64,000 bases of DNA, from contig JAFYQK010000001.1 of assembly GCA_017547165.1 (NCBI GenBank), positions 1 to 64,000 of the forward strand, in the 5' to 3' direction. Every line of letters begins with the position of its first letter. Position 1 is the stretch's first letter. Below the pieces are notes generated by a model that searched no databases, was not told the origin of the DNA, and saw nothing but the letters and a program-made list of their open reading frames with translations. A program made the position numbers and the translations under genes. This document shows, one piece after another, positions 14,178 through 45,800 of the stretch. Source of the stretch: Bacteroidaceae bacterium (GTDB lineage Bacteria; Bacteroidota; Bacteroidia; Bacteroidales; Bacteroidaceae).

Positions 14178-14254
14178 CTTAGGAACCCCTAGGAAAACCT
14201 AGGAACCCCTAGGACAGCCTAGGAAAGCCTAGTACATCCTTGCCCCCCCCCCCC
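14178..14254. repeat. 10-bp phased CCTAGG array plus C12 homopolymer
   Basis: Six or so 10-bp units of the form CCTAGGAAAA/CCTAGGAACC run from 14178 to about 14232, each centred on CTAG or CCTAGG. Then 12 consecutive cytosines occur at 14243-14254. The tract lies between the convergent fba and obgE genes, 8 bases after the obgE stop. Confidence 0.85.
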
Positions 14255-15493: not shown

Positions 15494-15622
15494 ACCTAAA
15501 GCCCCTAAAATTCCTAAGGACCCTAAAGACCCTAAAGACCCTAGAGACCTTAAAGACCTTAAAGACCCTAGAGACCTTAAAGACCTTAAAGACCTTAAGG
15601 ACACTATAGACTCTAACAACCT
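15494..15622. repeat. 9-bp tandem array (GACCTTAAA/GACCCTAAA)
   Basis: About 13 consecutive 9-bp units with the consensus GACC(C/T)TAAA or GACCCTAGA fill most of the adk-obgE gap. A related array is at 19776-19880. Because 9 is a multiple of 3, the plus strand reads as an artificial KDPKDL-type open frame that I do not regard as a gene. Confidence 0.9.
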
Positions 15623-16330: not shown

Positions 16331-16462
16331 TTCCTCTCACCGCTCACCTCTCACCGCTCACCGCTCATCCTCTCACCGCTCATCCGCTCATCGCTCATCG
16401 CTCACCTCTCACCTCTCACTGCTCACCGCTCACCGCTCACCTCTCACCGCTCACCGCTCATC
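16331..16462. repeat. 7-bp tandem array (GCTCACC/GCTCATC)
   Basis: About 18 consecutive 7-8-bp units of GCTCACC, GCTCATC or TCTCACC fill the hpt-adk gap and run into hpt itself. The last hpt codons (GAT GAG CGG TGA on the minus strand) are in register with the array, so the array supplies the hpt stop codon. Confidence 0.9.
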
Positions 16463-18257: not shown

Positions 18258-18896
18258 ATGCTTATCTACGATACCCCCTCGTGGCTCTCTGCCGGCACCA
18301 CCGGCAAGGGAGAGCAACTTGATGATGACCGAGCTTTTGGTAATGGCGCTCCTTTGGCACTTCCGCGCCAGACTCACTCCGCCAATGTTTGTCGTGTTGA
18401 GGCATCCTGCCGTCCCGACGACACCGATGCCGTCTTTACCGATGTTCCCGGCCTGTGCCTTGCCGTCAAGACAGCCGATTGCATCCCTGTTCTCCTTTTC
18501 GACCATCGCAAGCACACCATTGCCGCCATCCATGCCGGATGGAAGGGTACGGTTCAGTATATCGTCGAAAAGACTATCAAGGCAATGGAGTCCGACGGAG
18601 GCGACCTGTCCGCCATCATAGGTCCTGGCATCTCGCAAGATTCCTTCGAGGTAGGCGACGAGGTTTACGACCGTTTTCTCAAAGAAGGATTTCCCATGGA
18701 ACGAATCGCATGCCGACAAGAAAAATGGCATATCAACCTATGGGAGGCCAACCGTTGGATATTGGAGCAATGCGGTGTTTCCGACATCCGCATTGCCGGC
18801 ATCGATACCATGACCTCTCCGTTATATTATTCAGCTCGCCGCGAAACCATCAATACCGGCCGCAACTACAACTGGATTGTAATAAAAGAATACTAG
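18258..18896 (+). CDS. pgeF: Peptidoglycan editing factor PgeF (YfiH/DUF152), short form
   Basis: A 212-residue member of the multicopper-polyphenol-oxidase-like PgeF family. The His-Cys-His metal site is present: QTH (His40), KTADC (Cys75) and IHAGWKGT (His92). IGPGISQDSFEVG and the terminal TGRNYNWIVIK are also conserved. The family removes mis-incorporated L-Ser from UDP-MurNAc precursors in E. coli; others report purine nucleoside activity. It is about 40-60 residues shorter than usual, the missing part being the N-terminal strand region before the metal site. It ends in TAG at the start of a CCTAGG-type array. Confidence 0.88.
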   Translation: MLIYDTPSWLSAGTTGKGEQLDDDRAFGNGAPLALPRQTHSANVCRVEASCRPDDTDAVFTDVPGLCLAVKTADCIPVLLFDHRKHTIAAIHAGWKGTVQYIVEKTIKAMESDGGDLSAIIGPGISQDSFEVGDEVYDRFLKEGFPMERIACRQEKWHINLWEANRWILEQCGVSDIRIAGIDTMTSPLYYSARRETINTGRNYNWIVIKEY

Positions 18897-19021
18897 GGTT
18901 TTGCTATGGTTTGCTAGGGTATCCTAGGCCTTCCTAGGTTTTCCTAGGCCTTCCTAGGTTTTCCTAGGGCTTCCTAGGGTGTCCTAGGGCTTCTAGTTTT
19001 CCTAGGTTCTCCCAGGCCTTC
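18893..19021. repeat. 10-bp phased CCTAGG array between convergent pgeF and coaX
   Basis: Around a dozen units of TTTTCCTAGG, CCTTCCTAGG and GTGTCCTAGG follow one another, most exactly 10 bp apart. It starts at the pgeF stop codon and ends at the coaX stop codon, filling the whole gap. Confidence 0.92.
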
Positions 19022-19714
19022 TTAGCCTCTTATCTCCCCCCTAAACGCTGCCAAGAGCCCCTTTTGCACCAGCATAGGGTCGCATGTTATTATCCTGGCA
19101 AGGTCGCCTGGCAACTCCTTGCTGTCACCACCAGTAAAGAATACATGCAATGTTGGATATTTTGCCAACATACATCTTATATACCCCTCAATCTCCCACA
19201 TCATACCATTTATGGCACCGCTACGCATTGCCGAAGGAGTATCATATCCTAATACCGGATGATCACCTATAGCATCCAGCAAGGGTAGGGCAGCCGTATA
19301 GTCATGCATCGCCTTAAGCCTGAGATTGACACCAGGCGATATAGCACCACCAATTATAGTGCCATCGCTATCTATAACATCAAAGGTAAGGCAAGTACCA
19401 GCATCTATTATTAGCAATGGCTGCTCGGGATACATGCTCCTCGCCCCAATATCAGCCGCAACACGGTCGGCTCCAAGACCTGCCGGAATCTTTTTCAACC
19501 ACTTCGTAGCCTCTGCCGATTCCCATGTCAGTATCCTGCATCCAGGGTGTTGTCTCACCTCCTCAGGCAAGGCACTCTCTCCCGCCACATTGCTCACCAG
19601 CACTCTATTTGCATGAGGCAAAATCTCCTGCCAGTTTTCAATAGCACGTATTTCATTACCCTCTATGGTGGAAACCTTCATCCTTGTGTTTCCAATGTCA
19701 AAAATCAGGGTCAT
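19022..19714 (-). CDS. coaX: Type III pantothenate kinase
   Basis: A 230-residue CoaX. The ASKHA-fold signatures are visible: FDIGNTRMKVS at the start (phosphate 1), GADRVAADIGA (about residues 100-110), LIIDAGTCLTFDVID and GGAISPGVNLRLKAM. It phosphorylates pantothenate in the first step of coenzyme A synthesis and is K+-dependent and CoA-insensitive. It is convergent with pgeF, with only the CCTAGG array between them. Confidence 0.95.
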   Translation of the reverse strand: MTLIFDIGNTRMKVSTIEGNEIRAIENWQEILPHANRVLVSNVAGESALPEEVRQHPGCRILTWESAEATKWLKKIPAGLGADRVAADIGARSMYPEQPLLIIDAGTCLTFDVIDSDGTIIGGAISPGVNLRLKAMHDYTAALPLLDAIGDHPVLGYDTPSAMRSGAINGMMWEIEGYIRCMLAKYPTLHVFFTGGDSKELPGDLARIITCDPMLVQKGLLAAFRGEIRG

Positions 19715-19775: not shown

Positions 19776-19880
19776 TAAGGACTCTAAAGACTCTAAAGAC
19801 TCTAACGACTCTAACGACTCTATGGACTCTAAGGACCTTAAGGACCTTAAAGACCTTAAAAACTCTAAAGACCTTACGCC
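19776..19880. repeat. 9-bp tandem array (GACTCTAAA/GACCTTAAA)
   Basis: About 11 9-bp units (GACTCTAAA, GACTCTAAC, GACCTTAAA) lie between coaX and the AmpG-like permease gene. It is the same family as the array at 15494-15622 with a different dominant variant. Confidence 0.9.
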
Positions 19881-21447: not shown

Positions 21448-21640
21448 CTATTATAATCTGCTCCTCTGCGTAATCTGCGTGGCAATAAATACACAGACAG
21501 GTGGAAAACTTTTGGGGCACGCAGATTCCGCGAAGAGAGAGATTGAGCAGAGAATATGGCGCTGTCGCTGAGATTAACTAATTTATCGCAAGCTTCGCTA
21601 CGACAGAGAGCGCAGAGGACTTTGTTAAACATTAACCTCT
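21448..21640 (+). repeat. Large palindromic intergenic repeat, copy A2
   Basis: It consists of the inner arms (CTCTGCGTAATCTGCGTGG, then GGCACGCAGATTCCGCG) and the complete right outer arm ending GAGAGCGCAGAGG and TTTGTTAAACATTAA. The left outer arm is absent. Confidence 0.85.
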
Positions 21641-21905: not shown

Positions 21906-21919
21906 ACGAACGGAAAACC

Positions 21920-21968
21920 ACTCACTACTCACCGCTCACCACTCACCGCTCACCGCTCACCGCTCTTC
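21920..21968. repeat. 7-bp GCTCACC array downstream of proS
   Basis: About seven units of CTCACCG/CTCACTA lie between palindromic copy B and the proS stop codon. On the minus strand it reads GAGCGGTGAGCGG, the same orientation relative to proS as the array at hpt. Confidence 0.9.
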
Positions 21969-23651: not shown

Positions 23652-23698
23652 AAAGCCGCTAAAAAGCGAGCAAAAGCCCAACTTCGCCAGCGGCTTTT
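23652..23698. other. Inverted repeat downstream of the four-helix gene
   Basis: AAAGCCGCT at 23652-23660 pairs with AGCGGCTTT at 23689-23697 across a 28-base loop. It could be a weak terminator of the minus-strand four-helix gene; the loop is long and no clear T run follows. Confidence 0.45.
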
Positions 23699-23755
23699 AT
23701 AGGATATCCTAGGGCTTCCTAGGGTGTCCTAGGTTTTCCTAGGCTCTCCTTGGCC
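23699..23755. repeat. 10-bp phased CCTAGG array overlapping the 3' end of a gene
   Basis: Five or six units (TATCCTAGGG, CTTCCTAGGG, TGTCCTAGGT, TTTCCTAGGC, TCTCCTTGGC) run from noncoding DNA into the last nine or so codons of the four-helix gene. The gene's stop codon (TAG) lies within a CCTAGG unit. Confidence 0.88.
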
Positions 23756-24406
23756 TTCTATGGCCTCCAGCCTTTTCTTCAGCCTCTCTATTTCGGCTTT
23801 CAGGCGCTGGTTCTCTTCCTCCAGTTGTGCCATGTGCTCGTCCTGCAACTTACGATACCCTGTGCGAGCGGCATGCATGCGCTCCTTTATCCCCCCTTCG
23901 GTTACGAAGCGTTGCTCCAGTTTCTCCACATAGGCGCACATCATCTTGTCCGTCTGGTGGCAAAGGGTCAGGAGCAGGTTGGCGAACTCCTCGTCGTTCA
24001 TCCTCTCTGCCAAGGGAGCATAGTCCTGGAAATCGTTGTGCGAGTGGCAGAAATCCCTCAACCGTCTCTGCCTTTCGCTATCGGCAGACCATAGCACAAG
24101 TTGGTGCGTGTTGATATAATCGACGTAATCCTCTCGCAGTTCCTGCAAACTGCTGCGAGCCACGTTCAGCAGTTTTATCTCCATCTCGGAACTGGTCATA
24201 CCATCCTCGCTACCCTCTATGATATTCTGTTTTCCTGAGCGAGCAGCCTGCACCATCTGATCCACGGTACGGTCACCATGAGCAGGCAGGAAACGCTTGC
24301 AGAAATTCACCGTAAGCTGATATATAGCATCACTTTTGCGGTAGAAGTATAGGTTTTTCCAAACCACGGGCTTCTTAAGCACCGTTCCCTTGGTATTGTA
24401 CTCCAT
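23729..24406 (-). CDS. Four-helix-bundle suffix domain protein
   Basis: A 225-residue all-helical protein. Residues about 20-130 resemble the four-helix-bundle family of 23S rRNA intervening-sequence proteins (AARSGKQNIIEGSEDGMTSSEMEIKLL), followed by the longer suffix-type C-terminal half. The last 40 residues before the end are a coiled coil (LEEENQRLKAEIERLKKRL). Function is unknown; related small bundles bind RNA or reverse transcriptases. The final residues GEPRKT and the stop are encoded by a CCTAGG array. Arrays of the same kind flank the gene upstream at 24459-24600. Confidence 0.75.
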   Translation of the reverse strand: MEYNTKGTVLKKPVVWKNLYFYRKSDAIYQLTVNFCKRFLPAHGDRTVDQMVQAARSGKQNIIEGSEDGMTSSEMEIKLLNVARSSLQELREDYVDYINTHQLVLWSADSERQRRLRDFCHSHNDFQDYAPLAERMNDEEFANLLLTLCHQTDKMMCAYVEKLEQRFVTEGGIKERMHAARTGYRKLQDEHMAQLEEENQRLKAEIERLKKRLEAIEGQGEPRKT

Positions 24407-24458
24407 AGTAAATAGGTTTTAAGAGGTAGCGAGCTAAGCATCGAAGTTTTATAGAGTC

Positions 24459-24600
24459 CAAGGTTTTCCTAGGGCTCCTAGGCCTCCTAGACTCTCCTAG
24501 GCTTTCCTAGGCTTTCTAGGCCTTCCTAGGGTGTCCTAGGCTCTCCTAGGCCCTCCTAGGGTGTTCTAGGCTTTCCTAGGCTTTCTAGGGCCTTTTTCCG
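24459..24600. repeat. 10-bp phased CCTAGG array upstream of the four-helix gene
   Basis: About 14 CTAG-centred units (TTTTCCTAGG, GTGTCCTAGG, CTTTCCTAGG, CTTTCTAGG), mostly spaced 10 bp with some 8-9-bp steps. With 24640-24815, 24836-24940 and a terminator it accounts for almost all of the 600-bp gap between the four-helix gene and the 57-aa gene. Confidence 0.9.
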
Positions 24601-24835: not shown

Positions 24836-24940
24836 GGGGCCTAGTTTTTCCTAGGATTCCTAGGGTTTCTTAGGCCTTCCTAGGCCTTCCTAGGCTTTCC
24901 TAGGGTTTCTTAGACTTTCTAGGCCCTCCTAAGCCCTTCC
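24836..24940. repeat. 10-bp phased CCTAGG array
   Basis: Nine or ten units (TTTTCCTAGG, GCCTTCCTAGG, TTTCTTAGG, TTTCTAGGCC) between the diverged repeat and the terminator of the 57-aa gene. Confidence 0.88.
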
Positions 24941-25278: not shown

Positions 25279-28200
25279 TTACTTAATCACCTTCTTGCCG
25301 TTTACGATGAAGATACCCTTCTGAGCGTTCTGCACACGACGGCCAGCGAGGTCATAAACCTCAGAGTTTGCATTTCCGTTTTCACCCTCTACGCTCTCAA
25401 TGCCGGTTTCGTTGCCACCGAAGTCGAATACGAAGAAGCGAGAATTAGAACCTGCAGGCTTGGGTAAATATGCCTTGAAACCGTTGTTGAGCCATGAGGT
25501 ATTGTCCTGCTGGTTCTTGGTAGCTGTGTAGAAACCAATTTCAGAATCAGCAGGCTTAGAGAGAACGTAAGCGTCGTCGCTGATGTAGGTTGCGGCCGCG
25601 GTACCATTCAACATGTTTGTAACTGCTGAAGCCTCACCACCAATAGTTAGGCTGTATTCATTAGGTTCACCCTGAAGGATAACACCGGTGTTTGCAGGAA
25701 TAACAGCAGGAATAACAGCAGGGATAACATCTGTAATCGGAGTCATTTGAGCCTTACCATTATCTGTTGAAGCAACATAGTAAGCAGTCAAACCTTCGGG
25801 CAAAGTAACTGCTACGGGGCAGTAGAATGTTGCATAACCTGCTGCGCTGATAGTAATGGGGAGTTCCTCAACTGGTTCAAAGATCCATGCTGCGTTTGCA
25901 TCATTATTTCCGTAAGTAGTTCTAGCACTAGTTAACCAATCTGAAAGATAATAATTGTCCTGACCTCCCTGCGCATATGTACCTAGCAAATCTCTGTTCT
26001 CAACAATTCTCCAGGATGTGGGTTCTGAACCGACCTCGCCAATGAGACCGACACCACCTTCTGCATCATAGTCATTTACATAAAGGCCAGAAGCATAACT
26101 GAGTATATTATCATTTGCAATATACATAATGCTTTTTGCATCAATATTTCTATCCAATTTAAGTCCAGTTCCATCTACATAATTTTGGACATACTGACCT
26201 TTCTTGGTATTATCATTGCCATTCATGCTCTTAATACGATAGAAACCTGCTGGAGGCATATTAAGTGTAAGAGCATCAACAGCGCTGCCATATTCATATA
26301 ATGCATATACGGAATATCTTGCTTTCTCGATAGCCGATACTTCTTCCGGAAGTGCCAAAGCATTGAAACCATCTTTCATTTCCTCAGGCATACCCGAGTA
26401 TTGGTTTGCACCAGTTCCTATCTCATGCTGTGTTAGAGTATTGAACTGTGAAGTCAGGTTGCTTTGCCATTGAGCCTCTATATCTTCAGTTACTTCTTCT
26501 ATAAGCCATTGAGAGGCTGTTGAGCTACGCTGCCATCCTACAATTTGCTTAGAACCAGCCCAACTATACCAATGGAAGAAATCGCCATCTTGACCTCCAG
26601 CGTTAATGTTTGACGTTAAACAATGGAATACAAAGTGATTGTCTTCTATCTCTATCTTATATTTGCCGGCCTGTTCCTCTGTTTTGCTCATGTAAGTATC
26701 TTGATTTGTTGCTCTGATAGAACCAATATACCAATCGTAGTAGGGGTTGTACAGGTAGAAACACTGTTCTTCGTTAGTAGCCTTCAGCTCCCAGCAAAAC
26801 CTATAGTCTATGTTAGAACCGTTCTTAGTTTGGTAAGAAATCCTCTTTGTTGTTGGTTCTTCAGAATTGTCCAACTTACCTCCTGAGAAATCTGCATAGA
26901 TGTAGTCATTTGCATGATCTCTGTTCTTGATAAAGAACTTGTCTCCTTCCTTGAAATTGGATACAATGGCATATGTCAATGTTATGGTTTTACTTTCTTC
27001 GTCCAAAACAACATTTGTACATTCTTTTCCTGGAACTCTCTTGGCCGCTATGTCTGCATCTGTTAATGTGGCATTTGCAAAAATGTACTCGCCATTTGTA
27101 TAGTTCTTTCCTTCGTAAACCGCTGCACCGTTGGTTTCTGTGGTTATAACTTTATACACAAGAGAAGCCTCGTGCAATTTGAGTTTCAGTTTTCTGTTTT
27201 CATCAGTTTGATTCACAAACAATGCGCTACCATTTGCATGTCCTTCATTACCAAGGAATCCGTTACGTTTTCCGCTGGTGTTTTCAAGCAACACATTATA
27301 ACTGTCATTGTTTTTTACGAATGAAACTGCCCATGAGAACCCAGACTGATCTTCATTGACTTTTGTGTTCCATTGGCGATCATCTGGATATTGCCCCAAA
27401 TAACTGCCACCATCAGCAGTGGTGTGTATTTTCCATGAATAGTTTTCTGCGGTGATATACAATGACTGCTTTTCGCTATTCAAGGACGCTAATTCATTGT
27501 AATCCGCCTGACCTGACTCCTGAGTAAGATTGTTGATATCAAGGAACAGCTTGTGAGTTGCATCGTATAGCACATACTCAACACTAGTCTTGGGTGTAAA
27601 ACTTTCCAGAGCATCAAAAGCATTATTAATATCTTGTATTTCCTCATCTGTCAAATCACGAACAACCATAATCTGATGAACACTACCAGCATCTCCTGTG
27701 GATCTCAAACCACCTTCAGCATTGTTTCCTTTCCAGTTCGCTACACCAGGAGCAGCACCATGATTGAAATGGTTAATTGCGCCATAGTTATCGGTAGAGA
27801 ATAGGAAGGGATAGTCGCTAACAGTACTGCTTACTATTTGTACATCATTCTGAGGCAATACCTGCATAGGATATCTTCCACCTTCATTAGTATTTTGACC
27901 AATAAACTTCTTGCCTTCAAGACTATAGAAATAGTATTTGTCGTTATTCTTGATAATAGCCCACTCCGCAGCAGTAGAAGTATTGGAGATATTTCCGTAA
28001 GCTACTGTTGATGACAACTGAGTAGGATTAGCGGAATTATACAGCAACGCACCACGCTTGCTTCTCAAATAGTATGCCTTGGTGTTATCCAAATTAGCAG
28101 TGGATGTAATTTGCTTAGCTTTTGCTATGGCTGTTGCAATGCTCTCTGAAAAATCGTTTTCTCCATTTTCTACACGAGTAACGGTAAAATACTGAGATGC

Positions 28201-28650
28201 TGCTTCTGTTTCAGAAAGCCATCTTACCATTTCTGCATAACCGAGACAACAACTTAAATTATGCGAATTAGATTTGAAGACGTAATATTCTCCATTTTTC
28301 ACAATTTGCATGCCTGCGGATGGAACATTATCAGAAAATACTGCATAATTTCCGCTTTTGTCAGCAACGAATTTGTTGTTTCCCAAATTGTACAAGTAGG
28401 TCTTACCGAACAAGGTGAAAACATACCACTTTTCGCCATTTTCCACTGATGTTTGGCTATTGTTCTCATAACCACTAAGGGTAATACCGGTAAGAGCAAC
28501 ATTGTTAATACCATCTGCTGCACAAAGGGTGCCTCGTTTGTTGTAGACATTCTCGATGGTATAAACACCATCCTCTAGCCCCTCGAGCCCTGTCGCCCAC
28601 GCACTCACCGTACCACACAGTACGGCAAGCGTAAGTAAAAGTTTTTTCAT
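25279..28650 (-). CDS. Large secreted beta-rich protein with type IX-like tail
   Basis: A 1123-residue protein with a signal peptide (MKKLLLTLAVLCGTVSAWA). I recognise no catalytic domain. It contains repeated modules of about 120-150 residues with a pattern such as YYLRSKRGALLYN, KFFIKNRDHANDYIYAD and FYRIKSMNGNDN, followed by Trp-rich strands; these look like beta-trefoil (ricin-like) sugar-binding units, and the GH20-GH33 protein has a similar one (MYRLRNISRQNATLYLAPED). The C-terminal 35 residues (EVYDLAGRRV, GIFIVNGKKVIK) match the tail of that enzyme. It probably binds host or plant glycans at the cell surface. A long structured leader precedes it. Confidence 0.7.
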   Translation of the reverse strand: MKKLLLTLAVLCGTVSAWATGLEGLEDGVYTIENVYNKRGTLCAADGINNVALTGITLSGYENNSQTSVENGEKWYVFTLFGKTYLYNLGNNKFVADKSGNYAVFSDNVPSAGMQIVKNGEYYVFKSNSHNLSCCLGYAEMVRWLSETEAASQYFTVTRVENGENDFSESIATAIAKAKQITSTANLDNTKAYYLRSKRGALLYNSANPTQLSSTVAYGNISNTSTAAEWAIIKNNDKYYFYSLEGKKFIGQNTNEGGRYPMQVLPQNDVQIVSSTVSDYPFLFSTDNYGAINHFNHGAAPGVANWKGNNAEGGLRSTGDAGSVHQIMVVRDLTDEEIQDINNAFDALESFTPKTSVEYVLYDATHKLFLDINNLTQESGQADYNELASLNSEKQSLYITAENYSWKIHTTADGGSYLGQYPDDRQWNTKVNEDQSGFSWAVSFVKNNDSYNVLLENTSGKRNGFLGNEGHANGSALFVNQTDENRKLKLKLHEASLVYKVITTETNGAAVYEGKNYTNGEYIFANATLTDADIAAKRVPGKECTNVVLDEESKTITLTYAIVSNFKEGDKFFIKNRDHANDYIYADFSGGKLDNSEEPTTKRISYQTKNGSNIDYRFCWELKATNEEQCFYLYNPYYDWYIGSIRATNQDTYMSKTEEQAGKYKIEIEDNHFVFHCLTSNINAGGQDGDFFHWYSWAGSKQIVGWQRSSTASQWLIEEVTEDIEAQWQSNLTSQFNTLTQHEIGTGANQYSGMPEEMKDGFNALALPEEVSAIEKARYSVYALYEYGSAVDALTLNMPPAGFYRIKSMNGNDNTKKGQYVQNYVDGTGLKLDRNIDAKSIMYIANDNILSYASGLYVNDYDAEGGVGLIGEVGSEPTSWRIVENRDLLGTYAQGGQDNYYLSDWLTSARTTYGNNDANAAWIFEPVEELPITISAAGYATFYCPVAVTLPEGLTAYYVASTDNGKAQMTPITDVIPAVIPAVIPANTGVILQGEPNEYSLTIGGEASAVTNMLNGTAAATYISDDAYVLSKPADSEIGFYTATKNQQDNTSWLNNGFKAYLPKPAGSNSRFFVFDFGGNETGIESVEGENGNANSEVYDLAGRRVQNAQKGIFIVNGKKVIK

Positions 28651-30466: not shown

Positions 30467-30685
30467 TGAGATGTGAGTTATGAGCCACCTGTCTTAGGGG
30501 GATATAGTAAACTGAAAGGTGAAAACGGAAAACTATCCACCCCCTCCGCACTTCGCGCTCCCTCCGGGTCCAGCGTCGCAATGGAAATTGCGACCCTCAG
30601 AGAGCACAGAATGACATCAAGTCATTCTTCTAAAGACCCTCTTCGCCCACCTGTCTCAGGGGGACAGAGTAAATGGCAAACTTAA
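30467..30685. other. Noncoding spacer with a 20-bp direct repeat
   Basis: It carries CCACCTGTCTTAGGGGGA at about 30485 and CCACCTGTCTCAGGGGGA at about 30650, each followed by an A/G-rich AGTAAA. It also holds GGTGAAAACGGAAA (30518-30531), a word found in the 3' coding ends of two secreted-protein genes in this window. No gene is convincing. Confidence 0.6.
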
Positions 30686-30733
30686 CCGCTCACTGCTCAC
30701 CACTCACCGCTCACCGCTCACCGCTCATCCGCT
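30686..30733. repeat. 7-bp GCTCACC array
   Basis: Six to seven units of CTCACCG/CTCACTG. It lies 3' of palindromic copy F, in the same relative order as at copies B and I. From 30734 to 30960 only G/T-rich words (GCTTGTTGGCTGTTGGAC) are seen. Confidence 0.88.
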
Positions 30734-32961: not shown

Positions 32962-33028
32962 GAGTGAGTAATGAGTAATGAGTAGTGAGCGGTGAGTGGT
33001 GAGCGGTGAGTGGATGAGCGGATGAGAG
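32962..33028. repeat. 7-bp GAGCGGT/GAGTGGT array, reverse orientation
   Basis: Units of GAGTAAT, GAGCGGT and GAGTGGT are followed by GAGCGGATGAG. The array lies on the 3' side of reversed palindromic copy G, keeping the unit-then-array order of the other loci. Confidence 0.88.
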
Positions 33029-33344: not shown

Positions 33345-34625
33345 CTATGTCCTATATAGCAATGTATCATCTATTGCTGTTATCATTTCTGTCGGTATAT
33401 CATAGTCCTTTGCAATCGTTGACCACATGGATACAACATCGCAAATCTCATTAACAATCTCATTTGCTCGCTTAATATGCATTGCCTCGGCCACAGACAA
33501 TAAATCCGCTCTTGTAATATCATCCCATTTGTTATTAATAGACATCTGGTGATGTGAGGTCCATTCTCCACTGGGATTGTATGCCCAAGATACATCATAT
33601 GCTGGAGACAACCTCCAGGTTCCGCTCCTATCCATAAGGAATGAAATGTTTTTGGTATGGTCATCCTGATTACGGGCAATAACATTGAAGACCATTCGTC
33701 TGAACATTTGCTCGGCCTGCCCGTAAGGCAGACGAAGGCGTCGCATAATCTGGAAAGCCTGCTCATATGAATATGCGTGCAACATTTTATAGTCGTAATG
33801 GGCCAATCCACAAAGTGTCTGCATATGCACCTTCTCATTGCCTCCGATACGATCGAAGCGCTTTGTCATAAAGTGTGCCCGTCCGTTCTCCTCAAGCAGG
33901 CGACATTCACTCATCTCCAAACCTGCCTTCAAAGCCATAATGTAGTAAACATACTCGATCTTTCCATAGTGCTGCGGATCGCCAAGGGCTGCATTTGTCA
34001 CACCATCTAATTTCAAGAGCCAATGGCAAAAACCATCAGGAGCCTCTACCTGCCCCGAACGTACCTCACCAGTCTCGTCATTATATGCTATAACAGCCTT
34101 TGCTCTTTGACCTCCTGCTGATGTACTTACCTTGATAATATTGACAAGCGCCTCCTTTGTATTCTCCTTCAAGTTGGTATCTAATTCCGCTTTGTTGGAC
34201 AGAACCTCTGAAGCAACTTCAACCAACGAGCTAATCTCTATGGATGATGATTCCTCTAAATAATCATCTTTAGCAGGAACAAACTCCAACGCTCCCATCG
34301 AGCGTTTACCTTGGTAGCATAATCTCTCTACAGGATTGGCAAAAGTACGACCTAACGACGCAAGCCATCTGTCCAGCAATGCCTTTCCATATGCGTCTGG
34401 CAACGCATCTGCAAGCAGACCTGGCAATCCCATAAATGTTCCCCTAGACAATTCCCCGAATGCATAAGGGCTGTTGTCTTTCAACGGCATCATCAATGGC
34501 GACAATTCCCAACCGTTCTTAGAAAATGAAGGTTCGTATTCGAAAGTTGCTGTTCCTGTGCTTTCATTCCATAATACAGCCCCAGCATACTCTCCCCATA
34601 TATATACTTTTGCCAGATTTACCAT
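33345..34625 (-). CDS. hipA: HipA-family toxin (Ser/Thr kinase)
   Basis: A 426-residue HipA-type protein. The N-subdomain begins LAKVYIWGEYAGAVLW. The kinase part has the ATP-loop equivalent STSAGGQRAKAVIAY (about 168-182), the catalytic loop ARNQDDHTKNISF (Asp322, Asn326) and the Mg-binding motif SPAYDVSW (Asp344). HipA toxins phosphorylate aminoacyl-tRNA synthetases such as GltX and drive growth arrest and persistence. It starts 7 bases inside the upstream antitoxin gene, so they are translationally coupled. Palindromic repeats adjoin both ends of the module. Confidence 0.9.
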   Translation of the reverse strand: MVNLAKVYIWGEYAGAVLWNESTGTATFEYEPSFSKNGWELSPLMMPLKDNSPYAFGELSRGTFMGLPGLLADALPDAYGKALLDRWLASLGRTFANPVERLCYQGKRSMGALEFVPAKDDYLEESSSIEISSLVEVASEVLSNKAELDTNLKENTKEALVNIIKVSTSAGGQRAKAVIAYNDETGEVRSGQVEAPDGFCHWLLKLDGVTNAALGDPQHYGKIEYVYYIMALKAGLEMSECRLLEENGRAHFMTKRFDRIGGNEKVHMQTLCGLAHYDYKMLHAYSYEQAFQIMRRLRLPYGQAEQMFRRMVFNVIARNQDDHTKNISFLMDRSGTWRLSPAYDVSWAYNPSGEWTSHHQMSINNKWDDITRADLLSVAEAMHIKRANEIVNEICDVVSMWSTIAKDYDIPTEMITAIDDTLLYRT

Positions 34626-34963
34626 TCCGATTCAAATTTGTCGTTTTTAGTTTTATCAGAAGACGCTCGCTTGCGAGAAACTTGACTCTCTAATAGTTTG
34701 GCGTATGCAATCGGACTGAGTTCACGCTCTTTCAGAAATTCAGATAACATATGCAATGAATTGAGAGCCCTTAATAGAGGAATCAGTGTTTTAAGAGAGA
34801 CACTCTCTCCTCGCTCAATAGCAGCAACACTGCTAATTGAAATACCAGCAGATGATGCCAGTTTCTTTTGACTGATATTCTGCTCAAGCCGTTGGCGTTT
34901 AATAAATTCTCCAATCATTGAGAGAATCATATTATCTGCAAGTGCATACACATCCATAATCAT
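34619..34963 (-). CDS. hipB: HipB-like antitoxin, XRE-type HTH
   Basis: A 114-residue protein from the ATG at 34963. The XRE helix-turn-helix is in FIKRQRLEQNISQKKLASSAGISISSVAAIERGES, followed by an antitoxin tail rich in Lys and Ser. Earlier in-frame codons exist, but they would translate part of a palindromic repeat and lie upstream of the promoter, so I reject them. It neutralises HipA and represses the operon; a palindrome overlapping the promoter is a likely binding site. Confidence 0.88.
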   Translation of the reverse strand: MIMDVYALADNMILSMIGEFIKRQRLEQNISQKKLASSAGISISSVAAIERGESVSLKTLIPLLRALNSLHMLSEFLKERELSPIAYAKLLESQVSRKRASSDKTKNDKFESEW

Positions 34964-34985
34964 TGCTTTTTCAGTTATTACACCG

Positions 34986-35020
34986 CAAATATAGTAACAA
35001 TCGTTGGATTTCCAATGATT
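34986..35020 (-). promoter_or_regulatory. hipBA promoter with overlapping operator palindrome
   Basis: On the minus strand ATTG (35013-35016), 19 bp and TATATTTG (34986-34993) form a Bacteroidetes promoter, giving a leader of about 16 bases. The palindrome AATCGTTGG/CCAATGATT (34999-35020) covers the -33 element and spacer, as expected for autoregulation by HipB. Confidence 0.7.
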
Positions 35021-35104
35021 AGACATACTATTTTTCAAGAAACAGAGTATTTTATTCCACTCCACCTTCAAAAGGTGAGAGTTTAATGTTGAGAGATCAA
35101 CAAA

Positions 35105-35389
35105 AAACTCTGCGCCCTCTGTCGTAGCGAAGCTTGCGACCACTTTGTTAATCTAGCGAAGCGACATATTCTCTGCTCAATCTCTCCCTTTGCGTAATCT
35201 GCGTGCAAAAGAAGAAACAGTTTACCGTTCAACAAGTTAGCAGTGATACCTATTCATTTATTTGGTTTCACGCAGATTACGCTAAGACGCAGATTATAAA
35301 AGAATTAGACTTGTCAATCAGGCTACGCTTACGCTAAAGTAAGCAGATTAGTCGTAGGCTAAAGCCACGACAGATTACGCGGAGAGGCA
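35105..35389 (-). repeat. Large palindromic intergenic repeat, copy H (reversed, diverged loop)
   Basis: On the plus strand it contains the right outer arm, inner arms (GCGTAATCTGCGTG, CACGCAGATTACGC) with a longer unrelated loop, and the left outer arm ending CCACGACAGATTACGCGGAGAG. With copy G it flanks hipBA as direct repeats. A fragment of the TTTATTTGAG family follows at about 35391-35437. Confidence 0.85.
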
Positions 35390-37284: not shown

Positions 37285-37395
37285 ACTCTCATCCGCTCAT
37301 CCGCTCACCGCTCACCGCTCATCTGCTCACCGCTCATCCGCTCACCGCTCATCCGCTCACCACTCACTACTCACTACTCACCGCTCACCGCTCAA
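37285..37395. repeat. 7-bp GCTCACC/GCTCATCC array
   Basis: About 15 units of GCTCACC, GCTCATCC and ACTCACT lie between inverted repeat I and the promoter of the GH20-GH33 gene. Confidence 0.9.
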
Positions 37396-45735: not shown

Positions 45736-45800
45736 GGAGGGGCTAGGAAGCCCTAGGAAAACCTAGGAAAACCTAGGAGGATATAGGAAACCTTAGGTTA
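45736..45800. repeat. 10-bp phased CCTAGG array
   Basis: Units GGCTAGGAAG, CCCTAGGAAAA, CCTAGGAAAA and CCTAGGAGG, 10 bp apart, occupy the gap between the ATPase gene and nifJ. A small CAGGC/GCCTG hairpin (about 45833-45848) then precedes nifJ. Confidence 0.88.

Follow-up and report, generated by a model that had tools for sequence, protein, structure and literature searches.

Arrays of the palindrome CCTAGG lying between genes of Prevotella-related gut bacteria, together with a matching protein gene, suggest an undescribed repeat-reading system. We analyzed a 64-kb stretch of the genome of a Bacteroidaceae bacterium (hereafter the window) and compared it with related genomes. The reading that we favor, with a probability of about one half, is that a TIGR04258 protein recognizes the arrays as its cognate elements, dispersed over the genome, that they would serve as cooperative binding platforms, and that the gene of this protein is itself wrapped in them. 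What can be seen directly in the sequences is that gene and arrays pair, that the array word agrees with the clade of the protein, that the same genomes contain dispersed arrays with this word, and that hexamers change more slowly than spacers; protein binding at the arrays is what we infer, and recognition at the RNA level is an alternative.

CCTAGG arrays in the window and in the genome

All six arrays were found in the window where the original prediction had placed them. Their features, and those of the gene among them, are as follows.

Array 1, 14178..14233: four exact CCTAGG units at 10-bp steps with degenerate edge units, in the convergent gap between fructose-bisphosphate aldolase (+) and Obg (-).
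Array 2, 18892..19024 (the site of the original prediction): seven exact units at 10-bp steps and another at 19001, with degenerate edges; it fills the convergent gap between a YfiH-like gene (+) and type III pantothenate kinase (-), and its first unit contains the YfiH stop codon TAG (18894-18896).
Array 3, 23698..23763: four exact units; it overlaps the TIGR04258 gene at its 3' end, where it provides the TAG stop codon (23729-23731).
TIGR04258 gene, 23729..24406 (-): 225 aa, with a TIGR02436 four helix bundle, a TIGR04258 suffix domain and a C-terminal coiled coil.
Array 4, 24458..24594: nine exact units, upstream of the TIGR04258 gene.
Array 5, 24840..24940: five exact units, farther upstream of the TIGR04258 gene.
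Array 6, 45742..45797: three exact units with degenerate edges, between tandem genes for an AAA_14 protein and pyruvate:ferredoxin oxidoreductase.

The window contains 34 copies of CCTAGG, compared with a mean of 9.36 (sd 3.12, maximum 19) in 100 dinucleotide shuffles. Mostly exact 10-bp spacing had been claimed and was borne out, since 20 of the 28 spacings of at most 60 bp between neighboring copies were 10 bp; the other eight were 9 (two), 18 (one), 19 (two), 20 (two), and 35 bp (one). CTAG was also depleted as expected, with 62 occurrences in the window versus approximately 112 predicted from trinucleotides. An excess over the whole genome (2.26 Mb in 26 contigs, 84.5% complete) was confirmed for the phasing but not for the hexamer itself: CCTAGG occurred 98 times and its reversed control GGATCC 135 times, while exact triples of the form CCTAGG-N4-CCTAGG-N4-CCTAGG numbered 16, 13 of them within the window, against none for the reversed control. 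The description of the arrays as intergenic holds for the most part, with the qualification that an edge unit can hold the stop codon of a gene, as in arrays 2 and 3.

It had further been proposed that the six bases and their spacing are what is kept, and this was supported in two ways. In a set of loci selected for CCTAGG, this word formed 545 N4 triples, and the other 63 of the 64 six-base palindromes together formed one. Orthologous arrays of different species differed at 29 of 188 spacer positions versus 14 of 282 hexamer positions, an approximately threefold slower change of the hexamer (arrays aligned by spacer similarity, pairs not independent, and the pair L018/L070 yielding no aligned unit). 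The proposal that all palindromes lie on one side of the helix was not supported. The step is 10.0 bp rather than 10.5 bp, and 9 bp in sister families. Helical phase alone was therefore rejected, and a fixed tile size fits the 9-10 bp steps better. The arrays had been attributed to cooperative protein binding or DNA shape; a specific protein partner is indicated by the data below, whereas DNA shape alone is insufficient because GGATCC, of the same composition, formed no arrays in all 301 genomes of the family.

Position and anatomy of the arrays

We collected 167 distinct arrays with at least three exact units, most of them fetched because they matched. By context, 94 were tandem, 46 convergent and 11 divergent, 16 lay at a locus edge, and none was inside a called gene. 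Compared with other gaps of at least 40 bp in the same loci, array-containing gaps were less often divergent (7 of 119 versus 64 of 297, p = 7e-5) and more often convergent (44 of 119 versus 68 of 297, p = 0.005). Such locations suggest that the arrays work as boundaries or at 3' ends, or that a selfish pair is being tolerated. Among gene ends within 40 bp of an array, the stop codon was array-phased in 67 of 148 cases, and 58 of these 67 were TAG. A six-frame stop device was nevertheless rejected as a general purpose, since the sister word GTCNGAC contains no stop codon.

The edge units of the 94 tandem arrays tended to retain only their inner half (TAGG at the 5' edge, approximately 65% per base; CCTA at the 3' edge, approximately 78%), the outer half having been lost (33-41% and 54-22%, respectively). 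Therefore, TAGG-N4-CCTA describes the elementary unit better than CCTAGG. We saw no block copying of arrays: two-spacer words common to arrays of one genome numbered 37, no higher than the 39.5 (sd 7.5) predicted from the composition of the spacer pool. Fixed hairpin pairs were rejected as well, because exact-unit counts showed no preference for even numbers (most arrays having been selected for at least five units) and compensatory changes in neighboring units were found in only 2 of 41 cases. Flanking terminators were dropped as proof of a role as DNA, being present on both sides in just one of the 46 convergent arrays.

A TIGR04258 gene accompanies the arrays

Three of the six window arrays (arrays 3, 4, and 5) surround the gene at 23729-24406(-). 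Its product scored 75.2 bits against TIGR04258 (cut-off 40) and 34.5 against TIGR02436 (cut-off 24), and 30.1 against PF05635, under the cut-off of 33.8. Its profile matches included no transposase or nuclease family, no binding domain of known mechanism was found, and comparison with PDB gave no significant match. By tblastn over the collected loci, most of which were fetched for their arrays, a TIGR04258 gene turned up in 22 loci besides the window, with three overlapping duplicates left out of the count. Each adjoins a phased CTAG array at a distance of at most 73 bp, except for one at 300 bp.

When 66 distinct TIGR04258 genes were gathered, both for arrays and regardless of arrays (genes fetched both ways counted once), phased palindrome arrays were found to flank 45 of them, compared with none of 66 control genes. 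The strict palindrome score was passed by 26 of the 47 genes fetched regardless of arrays and by 19 of 19 in array-selected loci, and several of the 21 failing genes had degenerate or non-palindromic arrays by eye. TIGR04258 genes of genomes without CTAG arrays had flanks with GTCNGAC, CTCNGAG, CTATAG, ACTAGT, TCTAGA or TCCGGA, and some had less clear 9-bp units. In total, TIGR04258 was found in 105 of the 301 family genomes, with one to several genes per genome. It occurred in 31 of 35 array-bearing genomes versus 74 of 266 others (p = 4e-12), and the association persisted after stratification over the nine array-bearing genera (odds ratio 10.5, p = 0.001; genus table compiled by hand from the scans).

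Two further observations were made on these genes. Type I restriction genes (hsdR or hsdS) lie in the fetched locus of 11 of the 66 (L058, L111, L215, L218, L227, L229, L230, L232, L233, L234, and L253). In L223, L256, L262, and L264 the TIGR04258 reading frame enters a 9-bp array, so that the encoded C terminus is repetitive (for example SDKSDRSD or PIKPTKP).

Array words follow protein clades

TIGR04258 clades differ in their array word (CCTAGG, ACTAGT, TCTAGA, CTATAG, TCCGGA, and GTCNGAC, at 9-10 bp steps). On a tree of 66 proteins with 12 word labels, 13 changes were required (minimum 11), compared with a mean of 32.2 for shuffled labels, none of 200 shuffles being as low; 22 of the 66 labels were assigned by visual inspection that was not blinded to the protein, and of these 21 had a strict score below 2 and four were labeled 'other'.

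The words also recur away from the genes. In scans of 25 hand-chosen genomes, GTCNGAC arrays were present in all five genomes that carry a GTCNGAC-flanked gene versus 1 of 20 others (p = 1e-4), and CTATAG arrays in 5 of 5 genomes with a CTATAG gene versus 7 of 20 others (p = 0.015). Each of the five CTATAG-matched genomes has at least one CTATAG array away from the gene. In G181 and G139, the matches of these scans may be just those beside the gene. G166, which has an ACTAGT-flanked gene, carries ACTAGT arrays at three additional places.

Distribution across genomes

The N4 triple of CCTAGG was found in 28 of 301 family genomes (8 of 30 genera) and four CTAG at 10-bp steps in 34; G231, with the triple only, completes the array-bearing set of 35. 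The reversed control gave no match in any family genome scanned for CCTAGG, CTAG, CTATAG or GTCNGAC arrays. Among 395 genomes drawn over the phylum, the four-unit CCTAGG pattern occurred only in the genome of the window. A five-unit scan of named genomes matched at least 118 stretches; among the matches listed, 116 of 118 were named Bacteroidota, mostly rumen and gut MAGs and including Prevotella sp. ne3005, and the other two (L067 and L109, from other phyla) resemble plain satellites. A viral origin was considered and rejected: 18 IMG/VR stretches match the triple, and most of those inspected repeat one spacer exactly or nearly so, as simple satellites do.

Within the genera of the family the distribution is patchy. 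Free loss of arrays among strains had been held to count against the original prediction, and this was seen in part: in 29 other members of the genus with the same upstream gene, no CCTAGG was seen in up to 260 bp past the YfiH stop codon, and array 2 was therefore gained or lost.

Genomes that do not fit the pairing

The 35 array-bearing genomes comprised 18 with a matching-word gene (G256 and G072 judged by eye), nine with other-word genes only, four in which no TIGR04258 gene was found (G053, G065, G079, and G204), and four that were not fully inspected (G222, G122, G152, and G034). Thus 13 of the 31 resolved genomes do not fit. Five of the nine other-word genomes have a different CTAG-core word (G086, G124, G148, G169, and G231). 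Matched genomes had more array matches than the rest (median 8.5 versus 2, p = 0.002), with G086 (19 matches) and G065 (10 matches) as strong exceptions. G017 has 79 CTATAG triples and no known CTATAG gene. The 13 non-fitting assemblies are 62-98% complete, and it is possible that genes were missed in incomplete ones. Conversely, 74 of the 105 TIGR04258-bearing family genomes have no CTAG arrays. TIGR04258 occurs in 50 of the 395 phylum genomes, our own included, and thus also outside the family, where none of 29 fetched loci passed the palindrome score and 11 showed weak 8-11 bp repeats only, the flanks used being crude.

Other repeats and genes in the window

The window also contains 7-bp and 9-bp minisatellites with other sequences. 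Arrays of 9 bp (CCTAAAGAC, TAAAGACTC) at 15495-15616 and 19776-19872 are similar to flanks of another TIGR04258 clade (L228, L243, L261, and L314), and no TIGR04258 gene of that clade was found in the genome. We had predicted the CCTAAAGAC word for a second TIGR04258 gene in the same genome (L251, G000:C26:318500-323700); this failed, because its upstream arrays consist of CTATAG, of which one further array lies at G000:C13:7354. The array at 15495-15616 occupies the obg-adk gap, which contains CCTAGG arrays in L018 and L070. Dispersed CTCACCG-type 7-bp arrays (16336-16460, 21917-21965, 30685-30733, 32964-33026, and 37288-37394) form a further intergenic minisatellite family with no known partner, and TRF detected one 27-bp stretch of a 9-bp unit (TAATCTGCG) at 21454, 21736, 29404, and 30298. 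Adjoining array 5, a 1123-aa protein with no Pfam match is encoded at 25279-28650, and a HipA-like kinase gene with an adjacent HTH gene, possibly a toxin-antitoxin pair, lies at 33345-35143.

Proposed mechanism and alternatives

The palindromic symmetry shown by most words, the 9-10 bp step with 6-7 bp palindromes, the half-site edges, the slow hexamers and the clade-specific words are consistent, taken together, with an oligomeric reader that packs along the array. From binding onward, we infer the following steps. The protein, which combines an S23/Avd-like four helix bundle with a suffix domain and a coiled coil, would act as an oligomer that reads the palindrome, TAGG-N4-CCTA being the elementary site with two half-sites around the spacer, and adjacent oligomers would line up at 9-10 bp intervals as a cooperative filament. 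Arrays beside the TIGR04258 gene may thereby autoregulate it. Because the dispersed arrays follow genes or separate cistrons and seldom occupy divergent gaps, we propose that, once bound, they form boundaries (as a roadblock, in a terminator-like manner or by organizing the nucleoid) and are not classical promoter operators. In MetJ boxes, omega heptads and ParR/parC, which are tandem operators, adjacent sites at 7-11 bp steps are filled cooperatively. The likeness to these concerns the proposed cooperative mode only; the protein family differs by sequence, and here many arrays are dispersed, mainly behind genes. In an extended reading, which we hold to be slightly less likely than not, TIGR04258 proteins would be a nucleic-acid-binding family that reads clade-specific palindromes and forms filaments with a 9-10 bp pitch on chromosomal arrays of their own, and several such pairs per genome, each with its own word, would constitute an undescribed gene-end marking layer in Bacteroidales.

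A selfish pair resembling REPtrons, in which the gene and its flanking arrays form an autonomous element, mobile or repeat-generating, and the dispersed arrays are derivatives of it, tolerated at sites of little harm, is unlikely but a serious contender. It would agree with a gene whose flanking repeats are also dispersed in the genome, with the patchy distribution within genera and one to several genes per genome, with the scarcity of arrays in divergent gaps, and with the presence of array 2 at a site where 29 relatives have no CCTAGG. However, the protein has no transposase or nuclease family, the sharing of spacer words gives no sign of block copying, and hexamers that change more slowly than spacers argue for a maintained function. 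Ordinary minisatellites, arising by slippage behind genes and retained where TAG in all frames renders them harmless, are a very improbable explanation: three units at 10-bp steps do place TAG in all six frames, nearby stop codons are often array-phased, other minisatellites are present in the window, and the matches from other phyla resemble plain satellites, but the spacers diverge while the hexamers stay, GTCNGAC has no stop codon, and neither a partner gene nor clade-specific words would be expected.

We also regard as rather improbable a role at the RNA level, in which transcribed arrays would form rod-like hairpins that are read by the TIGR04258 protein or a nuclease and affect 3' ends or stability. 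Compared with shuffled sequence, folding is better for three arrays of the window (z = -3.3, -4.6, and -2.9), although any palindrome array is expected to fold, and GGATCC arrays, which should fold alike, were not found. The arrays are located in 3' and intercistronic regions, and most may be transcribed, since detected terminators enclose only one of the 46 convergent arrays; the low number of compensatory changes speaks against pairing of neighboring units, distant pairing in a rod being outside that count. A relative of the protein, Avd, serves in DGRs, where an RNA template is copied, according to the available part of PMC10053308. For the TIGR04258 protein as reader of the arrays, duplex DNA is the likelier target than RNA, perhaps by 3 to 2.

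Comparison with known systems

REPtrons are nearest in architecture. The available text on REP/RAYT describes short palindromic extragenic repeats that are dispersed in the genome and border a gene presumed to act upon them (PMC3733652), and TIGR04258 arrays likewise, with exceptions, flank their gene and recur elsewhere in its genome. However, the REPtron gene encodes an IS200/IS605-type tyrosine transposase and the window protein belongs to TIGR02436/TIGR04258; the REPtron repeat ends in GTAG (or CGTC), whereas TIGR04258 words are CCTAGG, ACTAGT, CTATAG, GTCNGAC and others, in phased tandem 6-7 bp palindromes with free spacers. Among repeats, the nearest are the TAACTGA heptamers, which the accessible part of PMC4679880 describes as phased short intergenic repeats, some of them in Bacteroidetes, and as a proposed regulator target. 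These are 7-bp non-palindromic direct repeats mostly just upstream of start codons, and that part mentions no gene with matching flanks (PMC4679880); the present arrays consist of CCTAGG at a 10-bp period.

By TIGR02436, the window protein falls in the same superfamily as the S23 or 23S rRNA intervening sequence proteins and Avd, and PF05635 is said to resemble the DGR accessory protein Avd in the part of PMC10053308 available. The window protein differs by its additional suffix domain and coiled coil, and the portions of the sources at hand make no mention of palindrome arrays for S23/Avd. CRISPR differs in repeat layout, having long repeats and spacers of similar length, compared with units of 6-7 bp and spacers of 2-4 bp here. 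Other interspaced-array systems are treated in PMC10910872, where a legend lists 23S rRNA IVP among CRISPR adaptation associations, and a minisatellite within a P. gingivalis MITE appears in PMC4596501, each as far as the available part of the source goes. In the open-access literature searched, we found no paper on Prevotella CCTAGG arrays or on TIGR04258 with repeats. Each known system that was tested has defining traits that the TIGR04258-array pairing lacks; the general architecture of a gene flanked by its own dispersed repeats is already known from REPtrons.

We found no described function for the TIGR04258 family, many variants of which, in bacteria common in the gut and rumen, are now paired with palindromes that are their likely targets. 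If this pairing is upheld, nature would offer a set of matched proteins and words for deducing a code of recognition, and many short intergenic arrays would be accounted for.
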